Positions 18,289 through 27,102 of a stretch of 64,000 nt of DNA are shown here, piece by piece. Made by a program: the position numbers and the translations under genes. The DNA is taken from NCBI RefSeq assembly GCF_000010305.1, contig NC_012489.1:1426001-1490000 (forward strand), in the 5' to 3' direction. Under the pieces are notes generated by a model. That model was not told the DNA's origin. It saw only the letters and a list, made by a program, of their open reading frames with translations, and did no database searches. This DNA comes from Gemmatimonas aurantiaca T-27 (GTDB taxonomy: Bacteria; Gemmatimonadota; Gemmatimonadetes; Gemmatimonadales; Gemmatimonadaceae). Numbering within the stretch: the first letter of the stretch is position 1; the number at the start of each line of letters is the position of its first letter.

Positions 18289-18353
18289 TGCATTGGGCCC
18301 TGTATCGGGCGGTTGGTCCTTCCTCTTGCACGGACCAAACAGCATGATTGGGC

Positions 18354-19751
18354 ATGTTCGGTCTGATTATTGGACTTTGGTGGGCGCAGTGGGCGGGCAT
18401 CGGATTTGGCCCGACTCCTGATGGCTTCCGTGATGGCTCCCGTAGTGGGTCCGGGCCGCCGGTGCGCCCGGCGCCCGAGTGGCGACCACGGTTGCCGATC
18501 AGCGACACCGTGCGTGGCTTCGTGTACGACAGTCTGCTCGCGGAGCCCCTGACGGGCGCGCTCGTGACCGCGATGCCGGGTGGCGAGACCACGGTCTCCG
18601 ATTCGGTGGGACACTTTGTACTGATCAGTGCACAGCCGGTGGAATTGGTGCAGGCGGTGCATGCGGAACTCGATCAGATCGGCTTGGGGGAGATGCGTGT
18701 GGCGCGCGTGCAAAATGCCGCCGCACGTGAACTTGTTCTCGCTACGCCGTCACGGCGCACCATCTGGCAGCGACTGTGTGGGCAGGTGCCGCCGAACGAT
18801 GCCATGACGGGCATCGTCTTTGGTTCGGTGCGCGACGGCGATGGACGCACGCTGCTGGGGGGCGTGATCGTGGATCTGCAATGGGAATCGCTCCAGATGA
18901 GCGCTGACACGATGCCACGATATGAAACACGAACCACCCGCAGCGATACCTCGGGGCAGTTCCTGTTCTGTGGCGTGCAGGAGTTTGGTCAGGCGGGCAT
19001 TGCCGCACGCGCTGACGCCCGACACAGCGGCAATGTGCTGCTCTATGCGGAAGTGCGACCGGTGCGGCGGGTGGATCTGGTGTTGGGAGCCATCAACGCC
19101 CCCGCCGTGCTGGTACGGGGGACCGTGCAGGATCCACATGGCGCACCGGTATACGATGCCACAGTGGAGATCGACGGAGGCGAACAGCCGGCCCGGACCG
19201 ATTCCGCTGGCGGATTCACAGTGATTCGTGTGCCCCCTGGCTCACGCATGATGACGGTGCGCAAGGTGGGATTGCTGCCCACACTCCGGACAGTCGATGT
19301 CGTGGAGACCATGACCCCCATCACCATCACCATGGAACGGGGCATCTCACTCGACGGGGTCACGGTGACCGCACGTCGCACGGTGAGTCGCACGTTGCGT
19401 GACCTGATGGAGCGGCGGCGGGCGGGGATCGCCGGGTTTTTGGACTCGACACGGATCATGCAATTCCCGCGCACACAGAGTGTCCTGCGCATGATCCCTT
19501 CACTCACCGTGCACACCGTAGCCAATGGCGTCGACTTCACGCTGCACGGACGCCTCAACTGCGGTGCCTCCGTCTACATCGACGGCGTCAAGGTGGAAAC
19601 AGAGGATCTGGCCGCACTGCCGATGGAGGACATTGCCACCATCGAGTCGTATGGGACCGACACATTTGCCCCACCGCAATATCGATCCTTCGTGGAGAAG
19701 CCCTGCGCGGTGATTCTCGTGTGGACCAAGCCGCGCCTCAAACGCCCTTGA
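18354..19751 (+). CDS. Barrel-less TonB-plug protein with carboxypeptidase-regulatory domains
   Basis: A 465-residue protein with two or more carboxypeptidase-regulatory-like (CnaB-type) modules (DTVRGFVYDSLLAEPLTGA at about 45; VRGTVQDPHGAPVYDATV at about 260), then a TonB-receptor-type plug (MIPSLTVHTVANGVDFTLHG, YIDGVKV, IATIESYG), ending in CAVILVWTK. A complete receptor would continue with 22 strands; here the protein stops right after the plug. The N-terminus is a short hydrophobic stretch of weak signal quality; an ATG at 18354 is used because the upstream in-frame codon is TTG. The same architecture and C-terminal motif recur at 19780 and 57895. Function unknown; an interaction with TonB-type receptors or a surface scaffold is speculation. 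Confidence 0.75.
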   Translation: MFGLIIGLWWAQWAGIGFGPTPDGFRDGSRSGSGPPVRPAPEWRPRLPISDTVRGFVYDSLLAEPLTGALVTAMPGGETTVSDSVGHFVLISAQPVELVQAVHAELDQIGLGEMRVARVQNAAARELVLATPSRRTIWQRLCGQVPPNDAMTGIVFGSVRDGDGRTLLGGVIVDLQWESLQMSADTMPRYETRTTRSDTSGQFLFCGVQEFGQAGIAARADARHSGNVLLYAEVRPVRRVDLVLGAINAPAVLVRGTVQDPHGAPVYDATVEIDGGEQPARTDSAGGFTVIRVPPGSRMMTVRKVGLLPTLRTVDVVETMTPITITMERGISLDGVTVTARRTVSRTLRDLMERRRAGIAGFLDSTRIMQFPRTQSVLRMIPSLTVHTVANGVDFTLHGRLNCGASVYIDGVKVETEDLAALPMEDIATIESYGTDTFAPPQYRSFVEKPCAVILVWTKPRLKRP

Positions 19752-19779
19752 CGATTCGGTCGGGAAAGGACCCGGAAGA

Positions 19780-21156
19780 CTATCGTCGAGCGTTGATGTG
19801 GGCTTTGGTCCATACCAGCACGACCGCGCAGGTGTTGCCCGGTGTCTGGAAGCGTGATGGGGCCATGTTCTCGCTCGGATAGATCTCCATCGCCGCGAGG
19901 GCGTCCTTGGGCAGCCGCGAGAGCATGCTGTCGAACTCATTGGGCTCGCGCACGCCGTTCACCCACAGCGTGGCCAGGCAATCGCTCCTTCCACGGAGCA
20001 CGAAGTCGCTGGGCGCACGACCGACCTGTGGACGAATGCCGGGTGCTGCGGACAATGCCAAACGGGTGGAGGGGTATCCGAGGAAGTAGGTGGAATCCAG
20101 GAACCGTCCCTTGTTGGCGACTTTGCGCTCGTCCAGTTCGCGAGCATCCCGCGACAGCGGACGCGCATCGCGCGTCACCACCCGTTCAAGATTGGTCACG
20201 GCAGTGCGCTCGATGGCGATTTCGAGGTCGGTTGTTCCCTTCGCGGTGAGGTCGAGTATCACCGCATTCGTGAGGAAGCCGACGCGGCGGGCGGTGACCA
20301 TGCGACTGCCCGTGGGTACGGCGGGCAGGGTGAAGCGACCATTGGGACCCGATGCGATATCGGCGACAAAGCCATCGATGCTGACCGTGGCTCCCGCCAC
20401 GCTGGCTCCACTTTCGTCGACCACCCGCCCCTGGACCGCGGCAAATGCACCAACCCCTTCGGTCGGTCCGACCACCAGATCCCGCCGACGCACGGATGAA
20501 GGAGTGGCTTCCACGAGCACATTGCCACTGCGCCAACTGCTCGACGACGCGACCACCGCGGCCGGACCAAAGTCCTGCACGCCGCAGAACACGTAGTTCC
20601 CGAGCGAGTCGCTGCGCGTGGTGATGCTCTCCATGCGCTTGAGGGTGTCCGCCAGACTACGCACGGATTCCCACTGCAGCACGACGCCGAGTCCCGCCAC
20701 ACGCGTCGTGCCATCGGCGGCCAGGATGCTGCCGAAAACGATGCCGCCATTGCCACCGCCGGGCCGGCGCGCCGGTGCGCACAGGCGCGCCCAGATCGTA
20801 TTGATGCCCGGGGTCGAAACGATGGGACGTGCCCAGGCATCGGGGCCCTCCGGGCGTGTCGCCACCAGTTCACCAAGCCCCAATCGGTCGGTGCGTTCAT
20901 GAAAGGCCACCAATCGATCGACGCGGCGGCTGCTCACGATGAAGAAACGTCCGGCGGAGTCACTGACGGCCGACTCGCCACCGGGTTCGGCGGTGACCAG
21001 CGCACCGGCCAGTGGTTGCCAGGACAGGCTGTCGTACGCGAGACCGCGGACGGTGTCAGCGGCCGGCCCGGACTGGGCGTCGGCGCGCAACGCGCCGATG
21101 AGCATGAGGGCCGTGACGAACAGAAACGAACCCGGGACACAACGGAATGGACGCAT
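19780..21156 (-). CDS. Barrel-less TonB-plug protein with carboxypeptidase-regulatory domains (paralogue)
   Basis: A 458-residue exported protein, convergent with and paralogous to the gene at 18354. The signal peptide (MRPFRCVPGSFLFVTALMLI..., cleavage after RADAQ) is clear. The modules match in order: ADTVRGLAYDSLSWQPLAGALV, LCAPA region, VVLQWESV, the second regulatory repeat VQGRVVDESGASVAGATVSID, then the plug (PSDFVLRGRSDC, LWVNGVREP, AAMEIY) and the terminal CAVVLVWTK. It ends without a barrel. An extended frame of 52 codons upstream is rejected because it buries the signal peptide. It lies 55 bp downstream of a sensor kinase on the same strand and may be the last gene of that sensor cassette. 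Confidence 0.78.
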   Translation of the reverse strand: MRPFRCVPGSFLFVTALMLIGALRADAQSGPAADTVRGLAYDSLSWQPLAGALVTAEPGGESAVSDSAGRFFIVSSRRVDRLVAFHERTDRLGLGELVATRPEGPDAWARPIVSTPGINTIWARLCAPARRPGGGNGGIVFGSILAADGTTRVAGLGVVLQWESVRSLADTLKRMESITTRSDSLGNYVFCGVQDFGPAAVVASSSSWRSGNVLVEATPSSVRRRDLVVGPTEGVGAFAAVQGRVVDESGASVAGATVSIDGFVADIASGPNGRFTLPAVPTGSRMVTARRVGFLTNAVILDLTAKGTTDLEIAIERTAVTNLERVVTRDARPLSRDARELDERKVANKGRFLDSTYFLGYPSTRLALSAAPGIRPQVGRAPSDFVLRGRSDCLATLWVNGVREPNEFDSMLSRLPKDALAAMEIYPSENMAPSRFQTPGNTCAVVLVWTKAHINARR

Positions 21157-21211
21157 CCCAAACGCTACTGCCGGAACGGCCCTCCAAGGAAGGGCTGAGA
21201 TCCGCTGCGGC

Positions 21212-23161
21212 TCAATCCCGCTGTGCCGCTCCAGCGATCGCTTCGGTGACCCTTTCGGTGACCGCTTCAGGCGCCAGCAGGGGCAGCACCATGACAAAAC
21301 GGGTCCCTTCACCGCGTTTCGATGAGACCGTGAGCGTCCCGGCTGCGTCGCGCAACATCGACGCGATCGAGGCCACGCCGATGCCCGTGCCTGAGCCGTT
21401 GGGCTTGGTCGTGAAAAAGATCGAGCCCAGCTTCTTCAATGTCTCAGCGTCCATGCCTTCTCCGGTGTCGCGTACCACAATCGACACGTAAGGCGGACGT
21501 CGCGATGGTGCGACGCCGATGATGTGTCCGCTGAGCTCCTGCACCGTAGCCGTTTCGATCGTGACGACGCCGGCATGGGGGCCGATGGCGTCGCGGGCAT
21601 TGGCCAACAGATTGAACAGCGCCTGCACGAATTTGGTGTGATCGGCCTGCACGAGCAGTGGGTGGGGCGCGAGCGCCAGCTCCAGTGCCACACTGCCAGG
21701 CAACAACCGGCGCAGCAGACGCTGGTGTTCCTCGATGCAACGGTTGACATCGAGCGGGTCGAGTCGCTGTTCGCCATCGCGCGCCAGCGTCAGCAGACGT
21801 CGTGTGATTTCCCGCCCACGCTGCGCGGCCAGGACAATCTCCTGCAGGTCTTCCTGGATGATGTGGTCGGTGGGGATTTCGGTCGCTGCGGATTGTGCGG
21901 CAGTGGACGTAATCGCGACCACGTGGTTGAAGTCGTGTGCCACCGTGCCGGCCAGGTGGCCGATCGATTCGAGCCGGCGTGAGGCGGCCAGTGCTTCTTC
22001 CAGACGCCCGCGCTCGTCGAGCTCCACTTCGAGCTCTCGACGGCGGGCTTCCAGATTGGCGATCAGTTCTTCGATGGTGTTGGCCATGACGTTGACGTCG
22101 TGCCCGAGCTGGGAAACTTCGTCATGGTGGCTATCGGCCGGGACACGTGCGTGGCGGTCATTGTTGGCGATGCGACGTACGACCTGCGCCAACACCACGA
22201 TGCGTTGCGCAAAGGTCTCGCCGATGAGCACGATCAACGTCCCGATCAGCACGAGTACGCCGGCGGAAAACATGAGCGCCGCGCGCGTTTCTCCGCGCAC
22301 CAGATTCGCGACCTCACTTCGGTCCACCACGATGGCCACGTACCACGGCAACGTCTGCAGATCCACGGCCGTCTCGACCATGGTGTGGTCATTGTCTACG
22401 CCGACGAGCAGCCGATCCCGCACCTCCAGTCTCCACCGATTGCTGGGATCCACTTCGTCTGACTGCAATTGATGCCAGGGTGACACCTGCACATTGGCCC
22501 GCACATCCGCGATCGGCCAACCGATGATGAGTCGTCCATCTTCCCTGTGCTCACGCAACCGCAGCAGCGCATAGGCCGGTATGGATCCGGCCAATTGACT
22601 CAGGATCTGGCCAAGCGCCGTGACCCGCGTCTGCAGGGCGATCAGTCCGACTTGTGTACCGGCCGCATCACGCACGGCGGCGACAAACACGATCTCCACC
22701 GGTGTGCCGCTCGAGTCGGTCATGGTGCGGGCGGTGGGAAACGCCAGTGCGTTGTCGCCGGGACTCGGTCGCCAGGTGGTCAGAGGAGACGTGGAGAACT
22801 GGACGCGCCCGGCCGAGTCGACAATCGTCGCTGCGATATTGTGCAGCGGATCGTGCCGTACCAGCGTTTGCAGGGCAAAACGGGCGTCCTGAATGGAACT
22901 GACGTCGCCGCGGGCAACGGCCAGCACTCTGGGGTTGAGCGCGGTACTCCGCACCGCATCCAGGCGATCGGCCAACAGCGCATCCAGTTGAGTTCTCGCC
23001 GAGAGAATATTGGCAGCCAGACTGGCTGATACCTGCTCCTGCAACTGGCGCGAGAGGAACCGATGGTTGCGCCAGGTGACCACACCGAGCGTGGCCGCCA
23101 CAAACGCCACCAGGGCGCACGCGACCAGGATCCGCAAACTGATTGGCCGGGACCGCGTCAT
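21212..23161 (-). CDS. Membrane sensor histidine kinase (dCache-HAMP-HisKA-HATPase)
   Basis: A 649-residue kinase: TM1 (about 10-28), a periplasmic Cache-like sensor (about 35-285), TM2 (about 295-315), HAMP (about 316-370), a coiled coil (370-398), the phospho-acceptor box GTVAHDFNHV (H409), and a HATPase domain with N box NLLANARDA, G1 DTGEGMD, F box FFTTKPNGSG and G2 GTGIGVAS. All catalytic boxes are present, so it should be active. The H-box type (AHDFN) is that of the NtrB/HPK4-like group. No response regulator is adjacent. Its start lies three bases after the stop of a binding-protein gene, implying that the binding protein and kinase are made together. Confidence 0.9.
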   Translation of the reverse strand: MTRSRPISLRILVACALVAFVAATLGVVTWRNHRFLSRQLQEQVSASLAANILSARTQLDALLADRLDAVRSTALNPRVLAVARGDVSSIQDARFALQTLVRHDPLHNIAATIVDSAGRVQFSTSPLTTWRPSPGDNALAFPTARTMTDSSGTPVEIVFVAAVRDAAGTQVGLIALQTRVTALGQILSQLAGSIPAYALLRLREHREDGRLIIGWPIADVRANVQVSPWHQLQSDEVDPSNRWRLEVRDRLLVGVDNDHTMVETAVDLQTLPWYVAIVVDRSEVANLVRGETRAALMFSAGVLVLIGTLIVLIGETFAQRIVVLAQVVRRIANNDRHARVPADSHHDEVSQLGHDVNVMANTIEELIANLEARRRELEVELDERGRLEEALAASRRLESIGHLAGTVAHDFNHVVAITSTAAQSAATEIPTDHIIQEDLQEIVLAAQRGREITRRLLTLARDGEQRLDPLDVNRCIEEHQRLLRRLLPGSVALELALAPHPLLVQADHTKFVQALFNLLANARDAIGPHAGVVTIETATVQELSGHIIGVAPSRRPPYVSIVVRDTGEGMDAETLKKLGSIFFTTKPNGSGTGIGVASIASMLRDAAGTLTVSSKRGEGTRFVMVLPLLAPEAVTERVTEAIAGAAQRD

Positions 23162-23164
23162 ACG

Positions 23165-24166
23165 CTACGGTGGAAGAAAGTCGGACGTCATGAGCACCCT
23201 GAAATCCGGCCGGGAACGCAATCCCCCGATTTCCGTCAGATAGCGAATGTGCGGTTCCGCGGACTGCTTCAGCGTCCCATCACCTCCTGCGCGCAACAAC
23301 TGACGATTCTCCTGCGGTGTCAGCCATCGCATGCCGATCGCCGGCGGGAGTGCCGACACGGGGCGGCCCTGCGCACGCGCCGCGAGCGGACGCAAGGCAT
23401 CGGCCGAATCGGCGTACGTCGTCGAGAGGGCGAGCAGACGAGACACCAGTTGACGGACGGTGTTCGCGCGGGTTTCGAGGATGTGCTTCCGCACCGCCAG
23501 GCATTGCAGGATCAGCCCGGGCGTCTGACTCGACGAATAGAGGATGTGATACGGCGGTTGGCGCACGGCATCGAGTGGTGGAGACCATGTGACGATGGCC
23601 TCCACGCTGTCCGATTGCAGCAGATGCACCGCATGGCTCGCTGTAGTCGTGATGATCTCGACGTCCTGCATATGCAGGCCTTCCCGCTCGAGCGCCTGGG
23701 CCAGCAGGACTTGCACGAACGTCCCGGGCGCAATCGCAATGCGCTTGCCACGCAATGCGCCAATGCTCGGAAAGGGCGCCGCCGCGATCAACGCGTCGGC
23801 GCCGTTCGATTCATCGGTGCACACCACGATCTTCAAATCACGCACGGATTGTTGAAGGCGCAGCAGGTCCGGCAACGACCCGGCAACGGCGTCGAACGAG
23901 CCGCCGGCAAAGTCGGCATAGAGATCCGATGGCGACGTGTGAATCGTGATCGTCGCGAGGCGCATCGCATCGGCCCCCGTCCCCAGAGCCCGCGTCGAGT
24001 CGGTGGTCTCGCTGGCGACATCGAGGGCGTAGTACCCGGCCCATAGTCCGTGCACGATACGAAGCGGCGGCGGCGGGGCAACCTCCCGACGACACGCCAC
24101 TGACAGCATCAGTAGCACAACCAGCAACATCAACGGGATGTGGCCACGCCACAGCGCGACGTTCAT
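23165..24166 (-). CDS. NMT1/SsuA-like periplasmic substrate-binding lipoprotein
   Basis: A 333-residue lipoprotein (lipobox LSVAC at about 26). The mature part follows the NMT1/THI5/SsuA binding-protein pattern: RIVHGLWAGYYALDVASE at the N-terminus, LYADFAGGSFDAVAGSLPD, then GKRIAIAPGTFVQVLLAQAL and VEAIVTWSPPLDAV in the second lobe. Such proteins normally feed sulfonates, nitrate, taurine or pyrimidine precursors to ABC permeases, but no permease or ATPase gene is nearby. Instead it is packed between two sensor kinases, suggesting a sensory role in which ligand-bound protein touches a kinase sensor domain. The ATG at 24166 is used since the upstream in-frame codons are non-ATG. A hairpin-rich 134-bp gap separates it from the upstream kinase. 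Confidence 0.8.
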   Translation of the reverse strand: MNVALWRGHIPLMLLVVLLMLSVACRREVAPPPPLRIVHGLWAGYYALDVASETTDSTRALGTGADAMRLATITIHTSPSDLYADFAGGSFDAVAGSLPDLLRLQQSVRDLKIVVCTDESNGADALIAAAPFPSIGALRGKRIAIAPGTFVQVLLAQALEREGLHMQDVEIITTTASHAVHLLQSDSVEAIVTWSPPLDAVRQPPYHILYSSSQTPGLILQCLAVRKHILETRANTVRQLVSRLLALSTTYADSADALRPLAARAQGRPVSALPPAIGMRWLTPQENRQLLRAGGDGTLKQSAEPHIRYLTEIGGLRSRPDFRVLMTSDFLPP

Positions 24167-24209
24167 GCGTAGTGTCGGAGGGAATCGACAGGGAACTCGG
24201 CGCAATCAT

Positions 24210-24240
24210 AGCATGGCGGTCATGACATGCGCCATGTGCT
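24210..24240. repeat. Imperfect palindrome between kinase and binding-protein genes
   Basis: An inverted repeat with CATGGCG / CGCCATG arms (24212-24218 with 24230-24236) plus outer AGC/GCT pairs encloses TCATGA. It lies in the only sizeable gap of the sensor cassette and could be an attenuating hairpin or an operator. No T tract follows. Confidence 0.4.
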
Positions 24241-24300
24241 CTAGCGGCCGTGCTCCATGGGCGGGCCCGTGCGCAGGCTCGGGCTGTTCCGCGTTGTCGT

Positions 24301-26268
24301 TCAGTCCAGACGCATGTCCGGATGCGGGTTCACCGATGGCGTCGCCGTGTTCGGATATTCGATCAGCGGGAGAATGAGGGAAAACTCCGTGCCTTGTCCC
24401 AGTGTGGATTGCACCGCCAAGGCCCCTCCGAATGCCCGCAGCATCGTGATGACGGACGCAATGCCGAGCCCGTTCCCCACCGTTGCGGCTTTGGTGGTGA
24501 AGAAGAGCTGCCCGAGTCGATCGATCGTTTCCGGTGTCATGCCGCTCCCGGAGTCCTGTACGCTGATGGCTACGTACGACCTTGAGCGTATAGGCGGTGC
24601 TCCTCCCACAAAATGCGGAGGCAACGTCGAGATGATGGTCGTGCTGAGACGGACGGCACCGGAGGCCGAGGCCATGGCATCACGCGCGTTGGACAACAGG
24701 TTGAAAATCGCCTGAAGCAGTTGCGTGCGATCCGTGCGGATGAGCAGGGACCGATCGTCTTGCACGAGTTCGAACTTGATCGACATCGGCAGCAATCGAC
24801 GGAACAGCGACCGATGTTCGACCAGGCACGCATTGGCATCGAACACTTCCACTTCGTTGGTGCCGTGGCGTGCCACCGACAGCAGGCGTTTCGTGATTTC
24901 GCGACCACGTTGTGCCGCCAGCAGGATGACGCGCAGCTCTGCCTGCATCTCGTGTGATTCGGGCACGGCATCCGACGCACTCTCGGATGCCGTCGCCACG
25001 ATCGACAACACATTGTTGAAATCGTGAGCGACGGTGCCGGCCAGATGGCCGAGCGAATCGAGTCGACGGGTCGCCGCCAACTGTTCTTCCAGTCGTGAAC
25101 GATGGTCCAGCTCCTGCTCCAGTTCACGACCGCGGTTTTCCAGACGCGTGACCAATTGGTCGATGGTGTCGGCCATCGTGTTGATGTTCACGCCCAGATG
25201 CGTCAACTCGTCCTGCGTACCGGTGGTCGGCACCCGTGCACTCTGTGGATCGGCGGCGATCTTTTGCACCACCCCATCCAGCACCGTGATACGCCGCGTC
25301 ACTCGGCGGCTGGCGACAAAAATGATGGCGCCCATGAATGCCAACATGAGCGCCGAAAACGTGAGCGTATTGCGGGTTTGAGCTCGGGTGGGGCCCACCA
25401 ACACGTGCTCTGGTACGAGCATGCCGATGTACCACTGGTCGTCCCGCAGATTGACCGCCGATTCCCGAAGCCGGACACCCGTGTCCCGCATCTGGAGCAG
25501 GCGCTCACGCACACTGCGTCTCCATCGCTGGGCCCTGGATCCGGGCTGGTCACCGGTGGTCCAGGAGAGATTGTCCACGGGGATGGTCCTGACCGGCAAC
25601 GGCCAGGCGGCAATGATCCGCCCGTTTTGCCAACGCACGCGCAAGGTGGTGCCCACTGGAGCGGTTCGGGCATACTCACCCAGGACATCCGACAGGAATC
25701 GTGTGTGCTCCCGCCAGGTCAACGCGCCGATGTGGTTACCCGCACTGTCCCGCACGGCAACGCGATAGGCGATCTCTCTGGTCACCCACATGGTGTCGGT
25801 GTGGGTGATGATCTGTGGTAGCACATCCGCCGGCATGGTGTCGAGCACCTGCGGAATCGGCGCACCGATCGCGATCGCGAGCCTGCGGGATCGGTCGGTG
25901 AGGGTGATGCCGATGAATTGTGCGGGATCCTGCTGACGCAGTGCCTCGAGCGCGATCCGGGCGTCGGGCAGGGCCTTTTCATCACCGGCCGCAACGGCCA
26001 CCACGGCCACCACGGCCACCACGGCCGGGTTCAGCGCGGCGACCTGGACGTCATTGAGCCGCGCGGTGATGACCGCATCGACATTGCCGGCGATGGCGAT
26101 CACATGCGCGGCCAGATCCGAAGAGATCCGGTCCTGCAGCAGCCCGGAAACCACTCCATGGCTGCGCCAGGTCACCACAACAAGCGAGAAGGCCGCGACG
26201 CTGAATAGCAGCGCGGTGGCTCGCGCGACCAGTTGTCGTCGCGGGGCGATGGATGACGCGGCCGTCAT
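24301..26268 (-). CDS. Membrane sensor histidine kinase (paralogue)
   Basis: A 655-residue kinase with the same plan as the gene at 21212: TM1 (about 15-33), periplasmic sensor (40-295), TM2 (302-320), HAMP, coiled coil, H box GTVAHDFNNV (H415), HATPase with NLLSNARDA, DSGSGMT, FFTTKAATVG and GNGLGIAS. The start at 26268 is chosen because it matches the paralogue's N-terminus; an ATG at 26334 with AGGA upstream would add 22 residues. The sensor domain holds a short VAVVAVVAV expansion made by a 9-bp tandem repeat (25994-26020) that the paralogue lacks. Together with the binding protein and the second kinase it forms one directional cassette without a response regulator. Confidence 0.88.
   Translation of the reverse strand: MTAASSIAPRRQLVARATALLFSVAAFSLVVVTWRSHGVVSGLLQDRISSDLAAHVIAIAGNVDAVITARLNDVQVAALNPAVVAVVAVVAVAAGDEKALPDARIALEALRQQDPAQFIGITLTDRSRRLAIAIGAPIPQVLDTMPADVLPQIITHTDTMWVTREIAYRVAVRDSAGNHIGALTWREHTRFLSDVLGEYARTAPVGTTLRVRWQNGRIIAAWPLPVRTIPVDNLSWTTGDQPGSRAQRWRRSVRERLLQMRDTGVRLRESAVNLRDDQWYIGMLVPEHVLVGPTRAQTRNTLTFSALMLAFMGAIIFVASRRVTRRITVLDGVVQKIAADPQSARVPTTGTQDELTHLGVNINTMADTIDQLVTRLENRGRELEQELDHRSRLEEQLAATRRLDSLGHLAGTVAHDFNNVLSIVATASESASDAVPESHEMQAELRVILLAAQRGREITKRLLSVARHGTNEVEVFDANACLVEHRSLFRRLLPMSIKFELVQDDRSLLIRTDRTQLLQAIFNLLSNARDAMASASGAVRLSTTIISTLPPHFVGGAPPIRSRSYVAISVQDSGSGMTPETIDRLGQLFFTTKAATVGNGLGIASVITMLRAFGGALAVQSTLGQGTEFSLILPLIEYPNTATPSVNPHPDMRLD
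25994..26020. repeat. Three 9-bp tandem units inside the kinase sensor domain
   Basis: Three perfect copies of ACGGCCACC, plus a partial fourth, encode the VAVVAVVAV stretch (minus strand). In the paralogous kinase the equivalent site reads ALNPRVLAVARGD, so the expansion appears to have occurred after the duplication. Copy-number change here keeps the frame. Confidence 0.85.
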
Positions 26269-26424: not shown

Positions 26425-26997
26425 CTACCGTCCCATGGAGCTGACGGCCTTTTCGGTCCCCTCGGCGATCCACAGCTCGATCGCGTCGATCATGCGCGGC
26501 GTGATGTCGTCCACGAGGGCACGTTCATCGCGTGGCATGGTGTGGAGCACGAAGTCGGCGAGATCGCCGATCTGACGACGCTCGTCAACCGGCTTGATTC
26601 CAACCCGCAGGCGCGGATAGGTGGGGGACTTGAGATGGGCCTCGATGCTCTTGAGACCATTGTGCCCACCCGGACTGCCAGCCGCGCGCAGGCGATATTC
26701 GCCCACTGGCACGGCGACTTCATCGACCAGGACCATGAGGTCCTGCGCCGCGGTCCAGCCTTCCCGCTTGAGATAGGGGCGCAACACCGAGCCGCTGAGA
26801 TTCATGTATGTCTGCGGCTTGACCAATTTCACCTTTTTCGTGCCCACCAGCCCCGTGGTCGACACGGCATCGCCGTCCTTGCGCCACGGTTCAAAGTGCC
26901 AGCGCTCTTTGAGCGTGTCGATGAGCCACCACCCCACATTGTGACGGGTGTTCTCATACTCCCGACCGGGATTGCCAAGTCCAACGATGACTTTCAT
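26425..26997 (-). CDS. pth: Peptidyl-tRNA hydrolase
   Basis: A 190-residue Pth with all family motifs: VIVGLGNPG (3-11), the catalytic histidine in NTRHNVGWW, KPQTYMNLSG, LVDEVAVPVGEYRLR and GSPGGHNGLKS. It releases peptides from peptidyl-tRNA that drops off the ribosome, and is essential in bacteria. The ATG at 26997 is used; an upstream extension of 17 basic residues is not part of the family. It follows rplY by about 105 bp on the same strand, the usual prs-rplY-pth order. Confidence 0.96.
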   Translation of the reverse strand: MKVIVGLGNPGREYENTRHNVGWWLIDTLKERWHFEPWRKDGDAVSTTGLVGTKKVKLVKPQTYMNLSGSVLRPYLKREGWTAAQDLMVLVDEVAVPVGEYRLRAAGSPGGHNGLKSIEAHLKSPTYPRLRVGIKPVDERRQIGDLADFVLHTMPRDERALVDDITPRMIDAIELWIAEGTEKAVSSMGR

Positions 26998-27102
26998 ACG
27001 CAGAGGAAGACGCGCGGGGCGCGGAATGCGCCAGCGTGGGGTGACCATGCTGAACGGACTCCGCGCCCCGCGGGACTGAAACGAAACAGAATGCCGAGCG
27101 AC

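Follow-up and report, generated by a model that had tools for sequence, protein, structure and literature searches.

The binding of solute-binding proteins (SBPs) to kinases, chemoreceptors and cyclases is established in general (PMC9602780), and the genes are associated in ten of the eleven characterised SBP-activated kinases (PMC11113362). In systems of the BctC–BctE, ChvE–VirA and XylFII–LytS type, the gene for a periplasmic SBP lies beside that of a membrane kinase, and the SBP is thought to engage the periplasmic domain of the kinase. The Gemmatimonas aurantiaca T-27 locus we describe here resembles these systems in gene arrangement and in the SBP–kinase contact we propose, but differs from them in having an NMT1-type SBP, a duplicated kinase and no adjacent response regulator. 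It also has no linked transporter, whereas BctC is part of a transporter operon (PMC9602780). We found no literature on the locus itself.

Organisation of the locus

The window we analysed is a stretch of 64,000 nucleotides (positions 1426001–1490000) of a genome which consists of a single contig of 4,636,964 bases, and the coordinates given below are those of the window. The three open reading frames (ORFs) of the locus are all on the – strand and are transcribed after pth (26425–27048) in the order HK-A (24301–26268), the SBP lipoprotein gene (23165–24166) and HK-B (21212–23161), with 134 bp (24167–24300) separating HK-A from the SBP gene and 3 bp separating the SBP gene from HK-B. HK-A has an ATG start within an open frame that extends to 26355 from a GTG, and the SBP gene also has an ATG start, with a TTG at 24205 as a possible alternative. 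These coordinates, the two gaps and the shared strand agree with a preliminary description of the region, and neither a permease nor a response regulator was found among the neighbouring ORFs. No sigma-70-like site was seen on the – strand of the 134 bp spacer, and the promoter scan returned sites no more commonly than in shuffled sequences. Rfam had no match in the spacer, a tRNA-Gln being the sole RNA element matched.

The solute-binding lipoprotein

The SBP passed the gathering cut-off of the Pfam NMT1/THI5-like family (PF09084; 26.6 bits compared to 20.5), and scored below the curated cut-offs of both the SsuA_fam sulfonate SBPs (TIGR01728; 72.6 compared to 163.5 bits) and the putative urea SBP ABC_peri_uca (TIGR03427; 70 compared to 333.9 bits). 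The AlphaFold2 model of the protein (pLDDT 89) matched TauA (Z 26.6, rmsd 3.5, 280 aligned) and SsuA (Z 24.8), in keeping with its first assignment as an NMT1/SsuA-type binding protein, and it has a lipobox-like LSVAC sequence with Cys25 invariant among the kinase-linked relatives. The SBP is like the TauA and SsuA ABC SBPs in fold and NMT1 family, but it shares ~16–20% identity with them and stands without a permease. It also has the motif DESNGAD at residues 118–124 (DxSxGxD), which neither TauA nor SsuA shows at the corresponding alignment position.

This motif offers a clue to the ligand. DxSxGxD was present in 36 of the 37 signalling-linked SBPs and in 10 of the 16 that are ABC-linked, the latter including SBPs encoded beside urea carboxylase genes and an agmatinase gene. 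Urea carboxylases often act on guanidine, imported via ABC transporters (PMC12186494). The TIGR03427-like ABC SBPs found beside urea carboxylase genes share the motif and a weak profile similarity with the Gemmatimonas SBP, but are followed by permease and ATPase genes where the Gemmatimonas SBP is followed by a kinase. As the motif is common to the urea carboxylase- and agmatinase-linked SBPs and missing from TauA and SsuA, we tentatively suggest a small N-rich compound (of the urea, guanidine or amidine type) as the ligand in preference to a sulfonate, and treat this as a lead given that the link between motif and ligand is indirect.

Conservation in near relatives

The SBP and HK sensor domain were both found in the same three of 149 relatives only, including this genome. 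In the two other Gemmatimonas genomes, the gene order is pth, SBP, one kinase and an M28 peptidase, with the SBP and kinase genes overlapping or abutting, and HK-A is absent from the locus in both. The conserved unit is thus made up of the SBP and one downstream kinase, kept between the same flanking genes, and the two-kinase design noted in the preliminary description holds for this species but not for either of its same-genus relatives, which have one kinase each. The SBP and kinase proteins share ~40% identity within the genus, and such fast divergence could mean that they are under weak constraint.

Two convergent genes encoding CarboxypepD_reg proteins (18348–21312) lie between the HK-B and M28 peptidase genes. 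The adjacent protein designated 19780 had been described as a plug protein that might be the output or another sensor part of the system, but in Pfam it shows CarboxypepD_reg domains only, with the plug domain not detected. The CarboxypepD_reg genes are absent from the locus in both same-genus relatives, and we rejected 19780 as a member of the system as it has no counterpart at the same place in these two genomes.

Two sister kinases with different sensor domains

HK-A has a transmembrane (TM) helix (residues ~12–40), a diverged periplasmic domain, a second TM helix (~300–324), a HAMP domain (319–369), the DHp His415 in the sequence HDFNN, and a HATPase domain (513–635). The equivalent parts of HK-B are a TM helix (~4–32), a dCache domain (~33–290), a second TM helix (~292–328), a HAMP domain (318–364), His409 in the sequence HDFNH, and a HATPase domain (507–628). 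The motifs HDFN, NARDA, DxGxGM and GxGxG are all present in both proteins, which thus have the phospho-acceptor His as well as the N and G boxes of putatively active histidine kinases, and the periplasmic domain held between the two TM helices is one on which the SBP could dock. HK-B scored below the Pfam dCache_1 cut-off (26 compared to 45), and the model of its sensor domain (pLDDT 70, and hence less sure) matched the PctA LBD (Z 16.1, 3.2 Å over 218 residues) and DctB (Z 15.0). The earlier label of a Cache-type kinase is therefore borne out for HK-B by a weak Pfam match and a clear dCache (tandem Cache) fold in the model.

The two kinases are paralogous, as had been proposed (42% identity over 631 columns), and group as sisters to the exclusion of the kinases of the relatives (support of 100/98 for the kinase core and 99/98 for the whole protein), and the duplication therefore postdates the split from these relatives. 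HK-B keeps the ancestral position and is the positional orthologue of their single kinase, and HK-A is a lineage-specific duplicate, an additional copy which this species alone has among its near relatives. Over the whole chain, HK-A departs from the residue common to the other three kinases at 71 sites and HK-B at 45 sites; HK-A is the younger tandem duplicate, and its sensor domain has diverged faster than that of HK-B. We also note a 9 bp tandem repeat of 4.6 copies (25986–26026 on the – strand, 93% match) inside the part of HK-A coding for the sensor domain, which encodes VVA repeats at a six-residue insertion that neither HK-B nor the orthologues have, and which may be a slippage hotspot.

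Absence of a receiver domain

No Response_reg domain was found in either HK-A or HK-B, which are not hybrid kinases on this basis, and the two orthologous kinases end where HK-A and HK-B end. HK-A and HK-B resemble the CckA/VirA-like HDFNN hybrid kinases in the kinase core (NCBIfam matches), but do not reach the whole-protein cut-offs and seem to have lost the C-terminal receiver. When a DNA pattern for HDFN[N/H] was run on the genome, 15 sites were found (with none for the reversed pattern), of which 14 encode HDFNN, and HDFNH occurs only in HK-B. A receiver match was present in the same open frame in all 13 of the HDFN[N/H] kinases outside the locus (all HDFNN). Since sampled kin located behind SBPs, one in genome G248 and several in other genera, retain the in-chain receiver, it is simpler to suppose that the Gemmatimonas kinases have lost theirs. 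HK-A and HK-B would then need a separate receiver, and this is consistent with the earlier suggestion of a regulator encoded elsewhere, which it sharpens; the cognate response regulator could not be picked out among the 81 receiver matches.

A wider family of signalling-linked SBPs

A profile built from the three Gemmatimonas SBPs and searched against 395 genomes of the phylum identified relatives in 20 Gemmatimonadota genomes. The closest SBPs from outside the genus (in G200, G267 and G256, and at two loci in G248) are encoded directly before HAMP kinases, of which four are receiver-bearing HisKA hybrids and the fifth is an HWE kinase with an adjoining receiver-only gene. An SBP gene is found directly upstream of a HAMP kinase in six Gemmatimonadota genomes besides this one, and the more distant SBPs of the phylum occur mostly with a permease and ATPase. 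At locus L034 (6945–9950), a HAMP–HWE kinase and a receiver-only protein come after the NMT1 SBP, which shows that this type of SBP can have different classes of kinase behind it. The SBPs of a separate Gemmatimonadota family (L044–L048) are ~570 residues long and have a hydrophobic stretch near the N-terminus; permease genes come next, and then ATPase genes where the contig reaches far enough. An SBP search of genome contigs gave one locus, which was rejected as an ABC system.

We also searched 398 Pseudomonadota genomes with a profile of eight kinase-linked SBPs, and 132 of these were matched at E 1e-30 or better. At 40 sampled loci the next gene encoded a kinase or GGDEF/EAL protein in 29 cases and a permease in eight, with three ambiguous, although these loci were chosen from the top-scoring matches of a search that itself started from kinase-linked SBPs, and the share of 29 in 40 is not a frequency (the next gene was typed by Pfam domains for 17 of the 29, and by phmmer match to kinase queries for the rest). 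Many of these SBP and signalling gene pairs have a 4 bp overlap, and on a Niveispirillum plasmid the SBP is followed by an EAL protein. At six of the 29 loci (L111, L112, L118, L119, L121 and L124) there is a same-strand kinase-like gene directly upstream as well. Where we compared the kinases on either side of the SBP (L111 and L118), they are ~40% identical over the cytoplasmic part and unlike at the N-terminus. The kinase sandwich therefore recurs, with other partners. The preliminary description had proposed looking for the same gene order in other genomes, and the SBP-then-kinase order does recur, including in distant genomes, which is more than would be expected by chance. The signalling label clusters strongly on the SBP trees (0 of 500 shuffles were as low), with support of 99/99 for the main signalling clade and 100/99 for the clade of the window SBP, and the AU test (p 0.40) neither establishes nor rejects a single origin of the kinase-linked SBPs. 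It should be noted that at L129 (3896–6208) and L143 (3315–5489) the signalling protein adjoining the NMT1 SBP carries at its own N-terminus an SBP domain of phosphonate-binding type (PF12974), fused to PAS and to GGDEF or kinase domains, giving two SBP modules per system.

A probable periplasmic three-component sensor

We think it likely that the locus encodes a three-component sensory system which works in the periplasm. A small solute would be bound in the two-lobed cleft of the lipoprotein, and the ligand-loaded SBP would then dock on its conserved partner HK-B, at the dCache domain, altering kinase activity via TM2 and the HAMP domain. With the C-terminal receiver apparently lost, phosphate would be passed to a receiver encoded elsewhere, and HK-A may signal to this regulator too, modulate it, or be on the way to responding to a different input. 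The SBP gene adjoins a kinase gene across genomes, as in SBP-activated kinases. Adjacency is not proof of SBP–kinase coupling, and AgtS and AruS are raised as a caution here, but here the pairing is kept in different genera and phyla and the genes mostly overlap or nearly do so, which is stronger evidence than a single adjacency, if still indirect.

The usual role of NMT1-type SBPs is in ABC importers, and orphan SBPs in other bacteria possibly use permeases encoded elsewhere (PMC13068155). The Gemmatimonas protein might likewise be an import SBP with a distant permease, its kinase-flanked place reflecting the regulation of uptake or being incidental, but we regard this as quite improbable. 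It is the sole NMT1 match in the genome, and a query search of the genome found no SsuC-like permease (best E 0.04), making an import role unlikely. There are 12 BPD permease matches in the genome, and the eight genes that we typed by family encode oligopeptide, phosphate, molybdate and polar-amino-acid permeases; with no permease among the neighbouring ORFs and none of SsuC-like type found in the genome, the protein lacks the partner expected of an ABC importer component. Furthermore, a permease was never the next gene among the kinase- or signalling-linked SBP relatives we examined, and where we looked for a permease in the relatives or for an SBP no longer kept beside the kinase, we saw neither. 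These findings support the earlier view that the ligand is more likely sensed than imported. Sensing need not involve the SBP, as many dCache domains bind ligand themselves, including those of PctA and DctB which are similar to the HK-B model, and the kinases could detect the ligand directly with the SBP as a co-inherited passenger, or as a protein that delivers or scavenges the ligand. However, the SBP–receptor gene order outlasts both a switch of the periplasmic domain from dCache (~260 residues) to a shorter form (~150) and a switch of output from kinase to GGDEF/EAL, and direct sensing seems to us unlikely.

The three-component sensor we prefer is compatible with a refinement in which the kinases form a split pair, with HK-B (HDFNH) acting as the kinase and HK-A (HDFNN) as the phosphatase of one shared regulator, under opposite or separate inputs. 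E/DxxT/N is the predicted phosphatase motif of HisKA proteins, in which the relevant position is the fourth residue after the His, and substitution of the catalytic residue abolished phosphatase activity and kept kinase activity in reported kinases (PMC11502775). This position is a His in HK-B, alone amongst the 15 HDFN[N/H] kinases, and an Asn in HK-A and the orthologues, and receivers are missing from both HK-A and HK-B. On the other hand, the effect of the His is uncertain, the HisKA_3 motif DxxxQ/H allowing for a His (PMC11502775), and the faster divergence of the HK-A sensor means that HK-A may have a different partner. We therefore hold the split pair to be possible but doubtful.

Implications

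More speculative, and on balance doubtful in its entirety, is the proposal that permease-free NMT1 lipoproteins are exchangeable inputs for kinases and c-di-GMP enzymes in the Gemmatimonadota and Pseudomonadota, and that Gemmatimonas has in addition split this signalling between a kinase-only HK-B and a kinase/phosphatase HK-A, both stripped of receivers and acting on one separate regulator. SBP-and-sensor pairs prove to be widespread, and this one is marked by its duplicated kinase and by the loss of the usual built-in output domain. Characterised SBP–kinase pairs are few (~11; PMC11113362), and permease-free pairing of SBPs with signalling proteins in two phyla provides a bioinformatic handle on indirect sensing, in the form of an SBP sequence class whose next gene usually encodes a signalling protein. 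Within this class the Gemmatimonas locus is a natural experiment, in which one SBP is found with two sister kinases that differ at the predicted phosphatase residue.
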